Source: Colwellia sp.
GTDB lineage: Bacteria; Pseudomonadota; Gammaproteobacteria; Enterobacterales; Alteromonadaceae
Length of the DNA stretch: 64,000 nucleotides
Direction: 5' to 3'
Assembly: GCF_013214175.1 (NCBI RefSeq)
Contig: NZ_JABSPA010000003.1
Coordinates: forward strand, 1-64,000
The notes under the pieces are model-generated. The model saw only the letters and a program-made list of their open reading frames with translations, made no database searches and was not told where the DNA came from. Numbering within the stretch: the first letter of the stretch is position 1; the number at the start of each line of letters is the position of its first letter. The translations under genes were made by a program, and so were the position numbers. Below, piece by piece: positions 33,556 to 39,005 of this stretch.

Positions 33556-34053
33556 GATATTTCCTACTACTATTTAGTGATAAGTATTCTTGCGATTGCG
33601 ATAAGTAATACTCGTAATTAATTTGTGTCTGCTCTTGTGCCTAGATGGTGTCTAAATTTGTAATTAGTTGCTTAAAAGCTGAGGTAAATTTAAAGGTTTA
33701 CGACCTCTCAAACCATGACAGCCGATTACAAACTACTTAATACTGCTCTTCACCTTGTTTTTCAATGTTTTCTTGTGCAATAAGTTGTTGTTAAATAATT
33801 GCTTATTAAATGTTTTTACTTTTGTGCAAATTTATCTTAATAATTGATGTAATTTTGTACTCGTAAGGGCGTGTCATTTTTTGTGATATTTTTGTGATGG
33901 AAATTTATAAATACTTCCATGTCAGCTTCAATGTCATTGGCCTTGTAATGCCGTGTAATGTTTTTTTGCTTTCAACTATGGAATAGTGCATTAAGGATAA
34001 AAACAATTAACTTCCCTGGAAGTATTCATACTTTCGATGGTAAGGAAATAACA
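33556..34053. other. 498-bp A+T-rich gap
   Basis: No gene or strong terminator was found. The last 60 bp, up to the ATG at 34054, resembles the DNA just upstream of the gene at 37604. It probably holds the promoters of the small secreted protein (-) and the gene at 34054 (+). Confidence 0.4.
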
Positions 34054-34428
34054 ATGCATGCACTATTATCAAGAGACTTAGACAAAGAGGTTGTATTAGC
34101 AGCAGGCAGCATTGCGGAAACGCAAAGGTTAACCAAGACAAATAGGAATGACAAAATGCAATGCACCCATGTTCACCTGAGGCAGTTAGATGAAAGTACA
34201 CTGACAACCTTGGCTGAGCATAAAATGCATGGTAAAGGTCGGCATAAGTGTTGCCAATGCGCTTATAACTCAGGATTCAATCAAGGCTCGCTGTTGCAAA
34301 GCTTTATTAGTTTGGATATTGAAAGCTTAGGTGATGCACACGCAGGTTCGGATGGTCGTTATAAGAGTGTTCATCAAGCTTTTGCCCTAGGGTATAGCGA
34401 TGGCGTTAATTCATTTATTCGAAGTTAA
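34054..34428 (+). CDS. Small cysteine-motif protein, possible chimera (GRHKC-x2-CAY family)
   Basis: This 124-residue frame has two plausible starts. The ATG at 34054 has TAAGGAAAT upstream, and its first codons (MHALLSRDLDKE) match the start of the gene at 37604. The ATG at 34156 has ATAGGAAT upstream and would give a 90-residue protein aligned end to end with the 85-residue protein at 38748. Shared features are M-x-C-x3-H at the start, GRHKC-x2-CAY-x2-G, an L-x-D-x2-AG stretch, and RYKSV-x3-F-x2-GY-x-DG near the end. The four or so Cys/His residues could bind a metal. I do not recognise the family. The gene lies downstream of the kinase locus. Confidence 0.72.
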   Translation: MHALLSRDLDKEVVLAAGSIAETQRLTKTNRNDKMQCTHVHLRQLDESTLTTLAEHKMHGKGRHKCCQCAYNSGFNQGSLLQSFISLDIESLGDAHAGSDGRYKSVHQAFALGYSDGVNSFIRS

Positions 34429-34518
34429 CGGCATTTTTTTTAAATAGTTGCATAAGGTATAAGGAAGTTAAAAAGGCTCGATATTGTTTGTGGCCAATAT
34501 TTGCAACCGGAGTAGTTC

Positions 34519-34725
34519 ATGCAAAGTAGAAAAACACTAACAAGTAGGTCTGGATTTAATTTGATGCAAAAAGATATTTTAGATAGCAGCGGTAACGTCA
34601 TAAGAACTTCTTATGAGGTGGAAGACGCTAATGAAGATGTTATAGGTCGTTTTGGCAGCTTAGCTGAGGCTGAGAAATTTATTAAGCTGTTATGTCACTT
34701 AAATTTTGAAGAAAAAGCCTTCTGA
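34519..34725 (+). CDS. Small uncharacterised protein (68 aa)
   Basis: This 68-residue frame starts with ATG after CCGGAG. The protein is soluble and acidic in its second half, with SSGNVIRTSYEVEDANEDVI and FGSLAEAEKFIKLL. The first part looks like two beta strands and the end like a helix. This pattern is common in small nucleic-acid or protein-binding domains, but no family is recognised. It follows the cysteine-motif gene by 90 bp on the same strand. Confidence 0.55.
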   Translation: MQSRKTLTSRSGFNLMQKDILDSSGNVIRTSYEVEDANEDVIGRFGSLAEAEKFIKLLCHLNFEEKAF

Positions 34726-34831
34726 GTCTAGGTTTGAGTCTATAAGAGTTTATTCTCTCAAGACATTTAAATTGCTGTTGGCTTATCTGCGGAAAGCACG
34801 ACACAATCCCAGTCGATTCAATCCAACTACT

Positions 34832-34878
34832 CTATTCGACTCTTATATTTAATAAAACTATTCGATAAACCTATTCGA
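34832..34878 (+). repeat. Three CTATTCGA direct repeats
   Basis: CTATTCGA occurs at 34832-34839, 34858-34865 and 34871-34878. The start-to-start steps are 26 and 13 bp. Related TCGATTCAA lies just before. The regular step suggests a binding array for a regulator upstream of the CadC-like gene, but chance in A+T-rich DNA cannot be excluded. Confidence 0.4.
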
Positions 34879-35031
34879 CAAAATCCCGCTTCAGAGTAAT
34901 AAATGGCTATGGCCTTTTTTATATCCAATCATTCCCTGAAACTTGTTTCTATATTGAGTTTTTACCGTCGAAAACGGCTCCAGTTATAGCTTTACCATAT
35001 TAGTCAGTGAACCATCTCAGAACCTATCATC

Positions 35032-35068
35032 TTCACTAGTAGAGTTACGGGTATTTATATACAATCAA
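35032..35068 (+). promoter_or_regulatory. Shared 37-bp upstream sequence, copy B
   Basis: This starts TTCACTAGTAGAGT and ends TATTTATATACAATCAA, matching 29348-29384 with 5 mismatches. It lies 121 bp before the CadC-like gene. Its conservation beside two otherwise unrelated signalling genes suggests joint control. Confidence 0.6.
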
Positions 35069-35189
35069 TTGCCCAATGTATTATTTTATTATTAATATGG
35101 AGCATTAAAAGTATCAAATTTAAGCTGCGTATTTTATTTAAAACCTGTTTGGCTAGTATGCTGAGCAATATATATGAATCGGTCAGTCA

Positions 35190-37268
35190 ATGAATAATTC
35201 TATTAAGTATCACCTAGCCAATTTAATTTTCTGCCCAGCAACTAAAACAATTGCCAAGCCGGATGGCTCAATTGTAAAGTTGAGACCGCAACGAGCCAAC
35301 ATATTAGCTTTATTTATTGAGTATAAAGGGCAGCTAGTTACCTCTGAAATCCTGCATAGCCGCATATGGAAAAATCGTAAGGTAGAAGATAAAACGGTAC
35401 AGGCCGCATTAACCAAGCTGAGAACAAGTTTAGGTTGGCGAGCAGGTGAAAACCTTATTAATGAAAGAAGTGAGGGCTATCGTTTAGTTTGTGAAGTAAT
35501 AGAAGTTAATGAACCTACAGACACTCAAGCAGTAGCACCTCAAGAGCTAGTGGATAAAACAGTAAAAAAAGGCGGTATAACTAAATCTGTATATGCAGCA
35601 GTACTTGCTGTTATAGCAGTAGCATTTATAACAATGCAATACTTTGCTTTTAGCGCTAATCCGCCTGACACAGTTAGAGAATTTAGCACAAAGCCAATTA
35701 CCTATATTAAAGGGCAGGAGCTAAAACCCAGCCTATCTCCTAATGGTAAATACCTGGCTTTTACTCATGCTAAAAATAAAACTTTACAATACCAGGTGAA
35801 AGTAAAGTTATCATCAAATAATAAGTTCTTATCTGTTGATGACGCATCCTTTTCAAGCTCTGCTAGTTGGAGTGCCAACGGTTCTACATTATATTATCAG
35901 GCGTTCGGAAATGAAGAATGTTTAGTTAAAAAAGTTCAGCTAATCGAAGAAATGATGTTTAGTAAACCTGAAGTTATTACGTCATGCGGTAAAGAAAAAA
36001 GTGAAAGCCCACTGGCTGTAGACAAAAATAATGAGTGGTTGTACTTCTCTTATAAAACAGCGCCAAATAAAGCGATGCACATTAAGAGAATCAATTTAAT
36101 TACCGGCAAAGAACAGCAACTAACAAGCCCAACTGAAGATGCTTACGGCGACTATAGTTTAAGCTTGAGTCCTGATGGTAAAACCTTAGCGATATTAACG
36201 TTTGACGCTTCCGCTATTGGTCGTGTGTATACGATGGACTTGCAGACCAAAGAACAAATTTTGGCATTTAGTTATAAGCACCTTTTATATAATGTTGATT
36301 GGGCAAAGCATGGGAAATCTTTCTTTTATATAGATCAAGATGCTTATATCGTTCAATTCAACTTAGACAGCAAAGTGAAAACTCAAATAACCCAATTGAG
36401 CCAAAGCTCGCAAACAATACAAGTAATTGAAAACGGTAATTTTTTGGTAGGCTTTGGTGAGTTTTATATAAGTGATTTATATAAACGTAGATTGGGTACT
36501 TATAAAACAGTACAACTTCAAGAAAGCCATTTCAATGACCATTCAATAACACCAATAAGTGTTGCACCAGAACAATATGCCTTTGTTTCCAACCGTTCTG
36601 GGCTACAGCAAATTTGGCTTTATGATAACGGTAGTTTAAAACAGCTGACAGATTATAAAAATCAGCTATTAATCAAAGAACTGAATTTGTCTGGGGATAA
36701 CACATCATTAGTTTATTTAACAAATTCAACAGTAAATGTGCTTGATTTAAGTGAGAGTATTTTTAAAAAAGTCACCACCAATGAAACACACTTTAGAAGT
36801 CCTATATGGCATTGCAATAACGAGACTATCCTAGCCACGACTAAAGTAAATGATGTTTGGTCTTTAGCTGAAATTATACCATCAACAGGAACTGTGGATA
36901 TTCTATTGAAAGGTGTAACGAGTATTAAAGCGGATTGTAAAAATGATAAATATTATGTTGCCCAAGAAGAAAAGTTTGGCGTATTTTTATTAACAAACTT
37001 ACTGGACAACATTCAAGACACACCTATTTTAGCAGATTATTATTTTGGTAGTGGCAGGCAGTGGTTAGTAGAAAACAATGTCGCTTACTTTGTAGACCAA
37101 AGAGTACTTTACTCAATGAACCTTACGACTCGGACTAAACCAGAAAAGCACATGGCCAATGTAAACATGGTCGGCTTTAACGTTGCATCCTCAAATATAT
37201 ACTTTAGTGAAAAAGTACTAAACGATTCATATATCGCTCAAATAACAGCCAAAGGCAGTAAAAAGTAG
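35190..37268 (+). CDS. CadC-like transmembrane transcriptional regulator with beta-propeller sensor
   Basis: This is a 692-residue protein. Residues 1-105 form an OmpR/CadC-type winged helix (RPQRANILALFIEYKGQLV, KTVQAALTKLRTSLG, NERSEGYRLV). A single transmembrane helix lies near 133-152. The periplasmic 530 residues contain TolB/PD40-type propeller blades (KPSLSPNGKYLAFTH, SLSLSPDGKTLAIL, APEQYAFVSNRSGLQQIW). Such regulators bind DNA while embedded in the membrane and sense a periplasmic signal with the propeller. Its promoter shares a 37-bp sequence with the FHA-kinase operon, so the two may answer the same signal. The target genes are unknown; the small genes downstream are candidates. 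Confidence 0.88.
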   Translation: MNNSIKYHLANLIFCPATKTIAKPDGSIVKLRPQRANILALFIEYKGQLVTSEILHSRIWKNRKVEDKTVQAALTKLRTSLGWRAGENLINERSEGYRLVCEVIEVNEPTDTQAVAPQELVDKTVKKGGITKSVYAAVLAVIAVAFITMQYFAFSANPPDTVREFSTKPITYIKGQELKPSLSPNGKYLAFTHAKNKTLQYQVKVKLSSNNKFLSVDDASFSSSASWSANGSTLYYQAFGNEECLVKKVQLIEEMMFSKPEVITSCGKEKSESPLAVDKNNEWLYFSYKTAPNKAMHIKRINLITGKEQQLTSPTEDAYGDYSLSLSPDGKTLAILTFDASAIGRVYTMDLQTKEQILAFSYKHLLYNVDWAKHGKSFFYIDQDAYIVQFNLDSKVKTQITQLSQSSQTIQVIENGNFLVGFGEFYISDLYKRRLGTYKTVQLQESHFNDHSITPISVAPEQYAFVSNRSGLQQIWLYDNGSLKQLTDYKNQLLIKELNLSGDNTSLVYLTNSTVNVLDLSESIFKKVTTNETHFRSPIWHCNNETILATTKVNDVWSLAEIIPSTGTVDILLKGVTSIKADCKNDKYYVAQEEKFGVFLLTNLLDNIQDTPILADYYFGSGRQWLVENNVAYFVDQRVLYSMNLTTRTKPEKHMANVNMVGFNVASSNIYFSEKVLNDSYIAQITAKGSKK

Positions 37269-37344
37269 TAAACGGCAGTTATTTTTTTTAGCTCATTTGC
37301 AGTAACTTAAATCCATCTAAAATCATAAGTTAAAGATGGAAGCT

Positions 37345-37515
37345 ATGAAAAAAATTATCTGTTTATTATCCCTTGCGCTATTAATTAGCAGCGCTTCAGC
37401 TCAAAACACTGCTCAATTAAATGATTTTAAAGGCACAACCAGTGCTGATAAAAAAGATCCAATAATCATCATACTTTGTATGCCTTTCCCATCTTGTGAA
37501 AAACTTGACGCTTAA
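37345..37515 (+). CDS. Short exported peptide (56 aa), possibly truncated
   Basis: The frame starts at ATG 37345 after TGGAAG. The first 21 residues are a good signal peptide (basic start, hydrophobic core, SSASA cleavage site). Only 35 residues follow, ending in IIIILCMPFPSCEKLDA. The abrupt end just after a C-x5-C segment suggests either a genuine short disulfide peptide or a larger thioredoxin-like protein cut short. It is 76 bp downstream of the CadC-like regulator. Confidence 0.5.
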   Translation: MKKIICLLSLALLISSASAQNTAQLNDFKGTTSADKKDPIIIILCMPFPSCEKLDA

Positions 37516-37603
37516 GACGCTTAACTTGCCGAACAAATAACAAAGCGAACCATAACTTTCCCTTTCAATTATTCTCGCCTTCGTGGGCAAGGGAGTAAAA
37601 ATA

Positions 37604-37867
37604 ATGCATGCAATGTTATCGCTAGACCTAGATAAAAAGACCACTGCTATAGAACGAGAAAAGTTCTATGCCCACATAAGAGGTAGTGGCTGGATGAAAC
37701 TTGCCAAGGTATCGACAACTTGGTTCACCAGTTATAAAGCAACGGTAAAAGAAGACAGAATCATCGCTGAAGTGAAACAAGACGTAGCCGCTGCAGCACG
37801 ATATTCAGGGGTTACTGCTTATGATGCCGTGGTCAATGTTAGCCCATCAGAGCCAAGTTTATTTTAG
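37604..37867 (+). CDS. Small uncharacterised protein (87 aa), possible Cas2/SinR-like fold
   Basis: The ATG at 37604 follows AAGGGAG. The 87-residue protein has MLSLDLDK at the start, a central helix (EREKFYAHIRGSGW), KVSTTWFTSY and a C-terminal alternating part (YDAVVNVS). The order of strand, helix with GW, TTW strand, helix and strand recalls small ferredoxin-like proteins of the SinR/Cas2-like type. This rests on pattern only, and no catalytic residue is evident. Its first codons and upstream DNA resemble those of the gene at 34054. Function unknown. Confidence 0.65.
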   Translation: MHAMLSLDLDKKTTAIEREKFYAHIRGSGWMKLAKVSTTWFTSYKATVKEDRIIAEVKQDVAAAARYSGVTAYDAVVNVSPSEPSLF

Positions 37868-37911
37868 TTATACCTAACTAATGGTGTTATCAATTGAAAT
37901 GGGGAGCTGTC

Positions 37912-38277
37912 ATGGAAGAAAAAATATTTTTAGACGCTGGTAATATTTCTGTCTCCAATAGTCGATTTATTGTCGATGGGCAAACCTATGCAATAGATAA
38001 CGTTACTTCGGTAAAAACAGGAGTAGAACAAGCCAAGAAAGGCACAGGTATTTTAATTGGCTTAATTGGTGTTTTCGTTTTATTTTCAGCAAAACCTTTT
38101 CTATGGGGACTCGTTATTCTGATGTTCGCTACTTTAGCTTTAATAGGCGCTAGGAATAAATATTCAGTTGTTCTAAGTACTTCATCGGGAGAAAACCAAG
38201 CATTAACGAGTGAAGATAAAACACAGATTGAACAGGTTGTTTCAGCGTTAAATGAAGCAATAGTGAGTAGAGGATAA
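37912..38277 (+). CDS. DUF6232-like small membrane protein
   Basis: This 121-residue protein starts at ATG 37912 after GGGGAG. The N-terminal part (FIVDGQTYAIDNVTSVKTG) is beta-rich. Two adjacent transmembrane helices follow (about 42-57 and 62-80), then a cytoplasmic tail with YSVVLSTSSGE and a helix ending LNEAIVSRG. This matches the DUF6232 type of protein, whose function is not known. It is 44 bp downstream of the small gene at 37604 on the same strand. Confidence 0.75.
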   Translation: MEEKIFLDAGNISVSNSRFIVDGQTYAIDNVTSVKTGVEQAKKGTGILIGLIGVFVLFSAKPFLWGLVILMFATLALIGARNKYSVVLSTSSGENQALTSEDKTQIEQVVSALNEAIVSRG

Positions 38278-38547
38278 AGCTAACACTAGCACTAACACGT
38301 TTAGTCATTGGTGCCGCATATTGGTACTTTTATAACCTAAAGCCTAATTGTGCACATAACTATGTTCTAGATCAGTTAACTAAGTCAAAAAATAGGTTTG
38401 AATTCTTATTTTCTCCAATATATATCGAAGAACTTGAGGGGGTAGTGTTCATATGCCTTATGCGTTTTAGTTGGAAAATAAGTTATCAAAATTACTAGCG
38501 TAAAGCAGTATTAAATCAATTTATTAAAACCGAGAAAGGAGATAAGC

Positions 38548-38697
38548 ATGGCTGTTAAACATATCCCTACAGACGTAGTACACCAAGAAAAAAAAGGTGG
38601 CACTACCGGCTGTGGCATTGATACCACAAGGAATAATGATCAGTGGATCGATTCACAGCAAAAAGTCACTTGTGATAAGAATGGTTGTAAGGATTAG
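38548..38697 (+). CDS. Small Cys-rich protein (49 aa)
   Basis: This 49-residue frame has an ideal AAAGGAGAT ribosome-binding site. The protein begins MAVKHIPTDVVHQEKKGG and has three cysteines, in TGCGID and in CDKNGCK, plus two histidines. It could be a tiny metal-binding or zinc-ribbon-like protein. It precedes the GRHKC-x2-CAY gene at 38748 by 50 bp, and both carry Cys/His motifs, so they may act together. No named family is recognised. Confidence 0.65.
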   Translation: MAVKHIPTDVVHQEKKGGTTGCGIDTTRNNDQWIDSQQKVTCDKNGCKD

Positions 38698-38747
38698 GTT
38701 TTTATAAAAAGTAATCTTACGCAAATACAATTTAATAGGAATTAATA

Positions 38748-39005
38748 ATGTCTTGTCCGCAACAGCACAGGTATAGCACTGACTTTGAGTCAATTCCTTA
38801 TGATCAAAGTCAATTTAATGGGCGTCATAAATGCGCTGGGTGTGCATACGAACAAGGTCATATATTAGTACTTTCGAAAGCCCCATCTATAAATATCGCC
38901 TTTGAAGCTCTATCTGATAGTCAAGCAGGTACAGTAAGGTATAAAAGTGTTCAAGCTGTATTTTCAAGTGGGTATTTAGATGGTGTATTAGCTTCTTATA
39001 AGTAA
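38748..39005 (+). CDS. Small cysteine-motif protein (GRHKC-x2-CAY family)
   Basis: This 85-residue protein starts at ATG 38748 after AATAGGAAT. MSCPQQH at the start and GRHKCAGCAYEQG form a Cys/His set that could bind a metal. RYKSVQAVFSSGYLDG near the end is shared almost exactly with the paralogue encoded at 34156-34428. I know no function for this family. A terminator hairpin follows 2 bp after the stop, so it is the last gene of the small-gene run. Confidence 0.75.
   Translation: MSCPQQHRYSTDFESIPYDQSQFNGRHKCAGCAYEQGHILVLSKAPSINIAFEALSDSQAGTVRYKSVQAVFSSGYLDGVLASYK

Follow-up and report, generated by a model that had tools for sequence, protein, structure and literature searches.

How does a small bacterial gene come to begin like one of its neighbours and continue like another? 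The question is raised by two small genes in the first 64,000 nucleotides (nt) of contig NZ_JABSPA010000003.1 of a Colwellia sp. genome (assembly GCF_013214175.1), the stretch referred to below as the window. The genes start at 34054 and 38748 and encode proteins with two common motifs. The longer has an N-terminal extension, the first codons of which resemble those of a third small gene, at 37604. The explanation that we favour, with moderate confidence as a whole, is that both proteins belong to one repeat family, that the long gene is chimeric and has two starts, that the 38748 gene has a separate history, and that the family is an accessory of restriction systems and temperate elements. 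The features concerned are listed here, with lengths in amino acids (aa).

34054..34428, + strand: long Cys-motif gene, 124 aa, phrog_3941, vertically inherited in Colwellia
34035..34085, + strand: putatively borrowed 5′ end, comprising the long gene's ribosome-binding site, its ATG 34054 and the first ~10 codons; common to the 37604 gene
34054..34155, + strand: N-terminal extension of the long gene, 34 aa
34142..34158, + strand: internal start region, AATAGGAAT then ATG 34156; likely ancestral ribosome-binding site and short-form start
34156..34425, + strand: core of the long gene, with CxxxH, repeat 1 with CxxC, and repeat 2
37604..37867, + strand: small protein with a 5′ end resembling that of the long gene; predicted beta-alpha-beta-beta-alpha-beta, the N-terminus being strand 1
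38748..39005, + strand: short Cys-motif gene, 85 aa, phrog_3941, on a tree branch with plasmid and phage members

Origin of the long N-terminus

The frame beginning at ATG 34054 continues through ATG 34156, so that the extra N-terminus is in frame, as a sequence-only reading of the locus had proposed. The open frame extends back further, to ATG 33958 (156 aa); AAGGA lies 7 nt upstream of ATG 34054, and no such site was seen before ATG 33958. The extension is open in 17 of the 19 Colwellia orthologues and is 35 to 45 codons long in the 16 genomes where its start was located by pattern. The first Cys is preceded by more than 20 residues in 67 of the 101 homologues found for the 124-aa form but not in 32 others, and two were unparsed; 49 of the 67 begin M-x-A-x-L-S. 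Long forms are thus present in many genomes, which is literally what the sequence-only reading had expected of an ancestral N-terminus. They do not refute a chimera, however, since the outgroups have in-frame stops and the shared end is constrained as protein only in the 37604 gene. The nearest non-Colwellia relatives with DNA examined are in Photobacterium (L070), Vibrio (L072) and Zobellella (L079), and in all three the frame is closed by stops lying four to seven codons ahead of the short start, whose ATG has a GGAG-type ribosome-binding sequence immediately upstream. From these stops we take the extension to be derived within Colwellia.

The first 12 codons of the long gene do resemble those of the 37604 gene, nine of the 12 residues being identical (MHALLSRDLDKE / MHAMLSLDLDKK), and the likeness noted in the upstream DNA is also present, around AAGG. 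When each of 17 long forms is set against whichever of five 37604-type genes matches it best, 19 to 28 of the first 30 nt are identical; the pair in the window's own genome has 23, and genome G007 against genome G010 has 28. A 29-nt pattern of this 5′ end, allowing up to three mismatches, occurs 12 times in 39 Colwellia genomes: at eight of the 19 long-form starts (the window's own long form, with more than three mismatches, not being among the eight), at four of the five 37604-type starts, and nowhere else. The reversed control of the pattern has no matches in the same 39 genomes.

Constraint on the shared codons differs between the two gene types. The ratio of nonsynonymous to synonymous differences (pN/pS) is 0.21 in 37604-type genes (10 pairs, five genomes) and 0.74 in the long form (136 pairs), or 1.06 among 12 close pairs, the genome pairs not being independent. 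In the model of the 37604 protein (mean predicted local distance difference test score, pLDDT, 89.9) they form the first strand of a beta-alpha-beta-beta-alpha-beta order. This order of elements is ferredoxin-like, judged from the predicted order of strands and helices only; the protein has 17 homologues, is found in five of the 39 Colwellia genomes, and has no family name. The extension of the long gene as a whole has a pN/pS of 0.85 against 0.21 for the core (12 close genome pairs). It is predicted to be disordered, with pLDDT of 36–40 (below 50 for residues 1–34), while the later ten-residue blocks score 68–97, and 94–97 in the blocks of two long helices. The extension would seem to serve expression rather than fold.

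A chimeric 5′ end of the long gene is supported by these comparisons, because the short outgroups have no extension and the codons matching the 37604 gene are protein-constrained there. The event appears to be an old one in the Colwellia lineage, because the extension is spread across the genus, 15 of the 19 long-form genomes gave no 37604-type match, and the two genes of the window's own genome are not the best-matched pair; the simplest reading of its direction is transfer from the 37604 type to the long gene. Early in the lineage a short resident gene probably acquired another start, when a ribosome-binding site and some ten 37604-like codons came to lie upstream of it in frame, and the former leader, with the old ribosome-binding site, turned into a coding linker. 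The proposed recombination between two small genes therefore survives as a chimeric 5′ end, although not as an exchange between these neighbours and not as a recent one.

The extension might instead be the original N-terminus of the protein, its likeness to the 37604 gene arising by chance or codon bias. This agrees with the frequency of full-length forms (67 of 101 homologues) and the retention of the frame in 17 of 19 genomes, but we regard it as quite unlikely in view of the in-frame stops right before the short start in all three outgroups, the confinement of the 29-nt element to two gene types in 39 genomes, and an extension that is nearly neutral as protein and predicted to be disordered. 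A recent gene conversion within the cluster, copying the 37604 5′ end onto the 34054 gene in this strain, was rejected as very improbable: the two genes are only 3.5 kb apart and have upstream DNA in common, but their 23/30 identity is below the 28/30 of G007 and G010, and most long-form genomes (the 15 of 19) have no 37604-type match.

Candidate starts within the long gene

The second start had been aligned with that of the 38748 gene, and AATAGGAAT indeed precedes both ATG 34156 and ATG 38748. At 34156 the most fitting reading is that of an ancestral ribosome-binding site, which once served the short gene and has come to lie within the extension; the exact match at 38748 may be a coincidence between two Shine-Dalgarno sites. 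The Arg codon at position −6 before the first Cys is AGG in all eight genomes that have Arg there, compared with six of 28 Arg codons elsewhere in the extensions and 21 of 380 across 16 genes of the window. This bias fits retention of the old ribosome-binding site and is suggestive, the related genomes not being independent. Seven of the eight have a downstream ATG and one (G026) a GTG. In eight more genomes a different in-frame ATG is present, preceded by AAGG or AGGG in G030, G037, G010, G005 and G012, by AAGA in G032 and G038, and by neither in G007. Long and short products from two starts are plausible, because the likely ancestral ribosome-binding site survives inside the extension.

Several departures count against a borrowed start with a surviving internal one. 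Two of the 19 orthologues have no open extension, G037 having an internal stop and G012 no such extension at all. The first ten codons diverge considerably in G004, G020, G002 and G024 (19–22/30 at best). The internal ATG has no Shine-Dalgarno-like site in G021, G014 and G007, and G033 alone has no internal start among the 19 long-form genomes compared. Finally, synonymous differences (pS) in the first ten codons are few in the long form (0.09), but pS is also depressed, at 0.15 to 0.23, in three control genes of the same genomes; we therefore do not claim selection at the RNA level from low pS alone.

The Colwellia gene looks as if it took its present start from another gene and kept the old ribosome-binding site within the new coding part, which makes the two start sites directly comparable.

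Family and repeat anatomy

Both small proteins have the two motifs that had been ascribed to them. The first is GRHKC-CQ-CAY-NS-G in the long protein and GRHKC-AG-CAY-EQ-G in the short one, and the second is RYKSV-HQA-F-AL-GY-S-DG and RYKSV-QAV-F-SS-GY-L-DG, respectively. Matches to the profile of phrog_3941 take the likeness beyond chance: the expectation values (E) are 2.5e-18 and 5.9e-20, and the alignments span positions 2–84 and 4–83 of 86. This PHROG family has no function name in its record. Pfam and NCBIfam have no family for either protein at E up to 1, and PADLOC has no model for the 38748 protein at the same threshold. Its match of AbiEii to the 34054 protein (E 0.0064, 13.9 bits, residues 6–90) was taken as chance. 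A 57-row family profile found no relatives of solved structure at E up to 10, and there is no functional name or Pfam domain among the 120 matches listed of 381 proteins (E up to 0.001). In the limited literature collection searched, no paper on phrog_3941 was found, and the string GRHKC recovered only subjects unrelated by title.

The two motifs are copies of one internal repeat, a relationship overlooked by the sequence-only reading. The halves of a 57-sequence family alignment match each other (hhalign probability 97.7%, E 1.8e-12), and in single-sequence tests of seven sequences with 1000 shuffles five gave 0 and the 34156 form 0.002; the result is weak for 38748 (0.042), a point against the reading. 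The unit is of ~29 residues, L-P..Q.G..RHK...A-Y/F..G-Y..G, and copy 2 reads RYK in place of RHK in both window proteins. C-x2-C is kept in copy 1 only, and C-x3-H upstream completes a set of four ligands. These residues (C3, H7, C29, C32) are invariant, at 100% across 196 sequences, part of which were gathered using patterns that contain the C-x2-C. They would probably bind zinc.

Separate histories of the two Cys-motif genes

The description of the two genes as paralogous is misleading, since they lie on opposite sides of a midpoint-rooted tree, one being vertical and the other having come with an accessory block. The tree, of 196 sequences, places the copies in opposite clades of 32 and 164 (supports 0.90 and 0.72). 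A recent tandem duplication was rejected, the proteins being 36% identical over 84 residues and on separate branches. The family is present in 20 of the 39 Colwellia genomes and absent from the other 79 relatives searched. Nineteen have an orthologue of the long gene; in the twentieth, G001, only the short gene is seen, on a contig whose start falls within the next gene. The neighbouring features are as follows (ORF, open reading frame).

34519..34725, + strand: conserved neighbour 3′ of the long gene, 68 aa, at 18 of the 19 loci with a long form (no tblastn match in the exception, G024)
35190..37268, + strand: CadC-like regulator (Trans_reg_C plus PD40 repeat), opening the accessory block
37336..37515, + strand: small ORF, 59 aa, signal-peptide-like start (by eye), together with 35190 and 37604 in G001, G016 and G020
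37912..38277, + strand: DUF6232 protein of the accessory block
38548..38697, + strand: 49-aa protein, phrog_38555

The conserved order in Colwellia is an FHA gene, a kinase-TPR gene, 33160 on the opposite strand, the long gene and 34519, followed by S9 peptidase and/or ABC genes. The 34054 gene is the resident, vertically inherited Colwellia copy. The 38748 gene sits in a block from 35190 to 39005 that lies between 34519 and the S9 gene. The entire block is present in G000 and G001. At the same place G016 has homologues of 35190, 37336, 37604 and 38548, and G010 has those of 37604 and 38548 plus a fragment resembling 38748 residues 17–48; in G020, 35190-37336-37604 are placed upstream of the FHA gene. 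The 38748 protein has a counterpart 95% identical in Colwellia isolate DT_17, and its closest named relatives outside Colwellia are from Thalassomonas (75%) and Aliivibrio, including a plasmid (63–66%). The 38748 gene is a separately acquired member of mobile-element type.

Two loci elsewhere recall parts of this region. In G140, from another genus of the same taxonomic family, a 38548 homologue directly follows kinase and 33160 homologues (L125:2-1647), so small genes may have settled at this locus repeatedly. In Pseudoalteromonas denitrificans (L054:3345-6261) three genes in a row echo the accessory block of the window: a CadC-like regulator with 29% identity to 35190, then a small ORF, then a family member.

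Distribution and association with restriction-modification genes

The family is found in phages, in plasmids and, by record title, in at least five bacterial phyla. The gene is downstream of CI in a P22-like phage, and in a P2-like phage it lies between ParMR and the portal gene in the gpA-gpQ interval, an anti-phage hotspot according to a passage of Rousset et al. 2022 (PMC9122126). In the one Escherichia coli prophage examined it occupies the same interval, and the version of the P2-like phage is present in 164 of 5426 complete E. coli genomes. Otherwise the family is rare: apart from the window's own genome, a class-level search of 369 genomes gave one doubtful match, in G440 (E 7.7e-4), which is antisense in an apparent TRAP-transporter region and was taken as spurious. 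A Vibrio plasmid and two Vibrio contigs have a common cassette (L028:5698-7814, L041:5744-7859 and L051:5741-6252) with an 80-aa gene and a family member, together with 344-aa and 187-aa genes in two of the three. Because a family cluster named Erwinia amylovora (P0185) represents 313 contigs, the family may be widespread in that species.

Nine of 54 genome loci are labelled by record title as outside the Gammaproteobacteria: two Bacteroidetes, one Chitinophagaceae, four Spirochaetaceae/Treponema, one Endomicrobiaceae and one Actinobacteria. By tblastn, with queries partly from the same loci, a DNA methyltransferase homologue lies no more than 1.3 kb away at every one of the nine, and a DpnII homologue is present at six (L050, L052, L055, L056, L059 and L066). 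Pfam, an independent check, finds a methylase in eight (L046, L050, L052, L055, L056, L059, L066 and L074) and DpnII in five (L050, L052, L055, L059 and L066). The ninth methylase, at L058, is partial at a contig edge (68% over 117 residues), and DpnII at L056 is by tblastn. L055 and L056 are close kin. The gene order of a Treponema locus has one further, partial match in 290 other genomes.

Other arrangements are similar. A Lactiplantibacillus plasmid has a D12 methylase gene, a gene for a DUF6996/6997/7226 protein and the small family gene in a row. L046 and L095 have a D12 or N6_N4 methylase, a PDDEXK_11 nuclease and the small gene together, and so does L048, where the nuclease match is just below the Pfam cut-off. 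In a Bacteroidetes metagenome-assembled genome (MAG) a DndB-domain protein (PF14072; L066:4831-6255, E 3.8e-17) carries the family domain as its C-terminal part and is encoded directly before a methylase inside a DpnII-type locus. Neighbours were tallied at 56 of the 89 loci L024–L112, omitting Colwellia and apparent repeats and not counting ORFs under 90 aa; nine of the 56, including the methylase-bearing L052 and L074, were lost when the ORF filter missed the family gene. Near ORFs (150 of 157) gave six matches to N6_N4 methylase, four to D12, four to DpnII and two to PDDEXK_11, and far ORFs (150 of 174) at least one to a methylase among the top 25 families listed. Two other loci, in an uncultured gammaproteobacterium (L038:4797-6853) and Methylophaga (L053:6968-9045), have a family member near two genes homologous between them (34% and 24% identity), which have no Pfam match.

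Possible functions of the family

These neighbourhoods suggest that the family would act as an accessory protein of DNA modification or restriction and of temperate elements. As a tentative first choice, it would be a small zinc-dependent regulator or adaptor of such systems. A more specific proposal, which we consider unlikely, is that DpnII-like and other type II restriction-modification systems have in phrog_3941 a fourth component that has gone unrecognised. This two-repeat zinc protein would control or complete the system; temperate phages and plasmids would have taken it up as a free-standing gene, and Colwellia would have domesticated it with a borrowed translation start giving long and short isoforms.

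The association with restriction is challenged on several sides. Among gammaproteobacterial loci only two of 45 (L043 and L048) have a methylase match with the query set used. Several of the loci outside that class are short MAG contigs, with the taxon as binned. A search confined to the window, by tblastn of 18 reference proteins, a restriction set among them, at E 0.01, found no match. The family is slightly acidic (median isoelectric point 6.5, net charge −1). Simple, charge-driven and non-specific DNA binding is therefore disfavoured, and the composition points to contacts with protein or with specific nucleic acids in preference to bulk DNA.

Two other roles were weighed. The family could be a phage-exclusion or defence protein that acts alone and is retained by prophages and by chromosomes, a possibility of some substance, if doubtful. 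The P2-type hotspot (described in part of PMC9122126) and the CI-adjacent sites agree with it, as do neighbours such as a DUF4062 protein (L039) and an AAA_15/AAA_21 ATPase (L079). However, PADLOC recognises nothing in the 38748 protein and gives only the weak AbiEii match in the 34054 protein, and the 34054 gene is kept vertically in Colwellia, with no restriction gene found beside it. We think it unlikely that the family is an anti-restriction or immunity protein, tempering the endonuclease in operons and, as an orphan, protecting incoming phage or plasmid DNA. Such a role would suit the close-packed runs with methylase and endonuclease genes and the orphan copies on plasmids and phages, but in the annotated phages examined the gene is just downstream of CI or on the strand opposite Q and the lysis genes, a placement that suggests expression in the lysogen and not in the early lytic phase.

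Comparison with known systems

Neither window protein has a convincing match among the PADLOC models of known anti-phage systems, and the helix-turn-helix of a restriction controller (C) protein was not found in them by Pfam at E up to 1. DndB has no match in the window proteins either; the C-terminal fusion at L066 is the sole one seen. The DpnII-type operons (D12 methylase, DpnII endonuclease and N6_N4 methylase) are closer by context, as a family member adjoins such genes at six loci; the window has no homologues of those genes, and so its locus is not of this type. Com of phage Mu is described in a passage of PMC6483171 as a small zinc-finger activator of mom mRNA. The family resembles it, by analogy and not by membership, as a small Cys-motif protein linked to a DNA-modification gene; the window proteins differ in having no Pfam match at E up to 1, and thus no match to a Com profile. 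Pfam includes a Com model, and to our knowledge the two-repeat layout and the C-x3-H...C-x2-C pattern are not those of Com. It is with phrog_3941 that the window proteins agree over nearly a whole profile, the 34-aa extension of the long form lying outside it. This unnamed family of phages, plasmids, several phyla and E. coli now has an anatomy, two repeats with a probable zinc site, and a connection to restriction-modification that can be tested.

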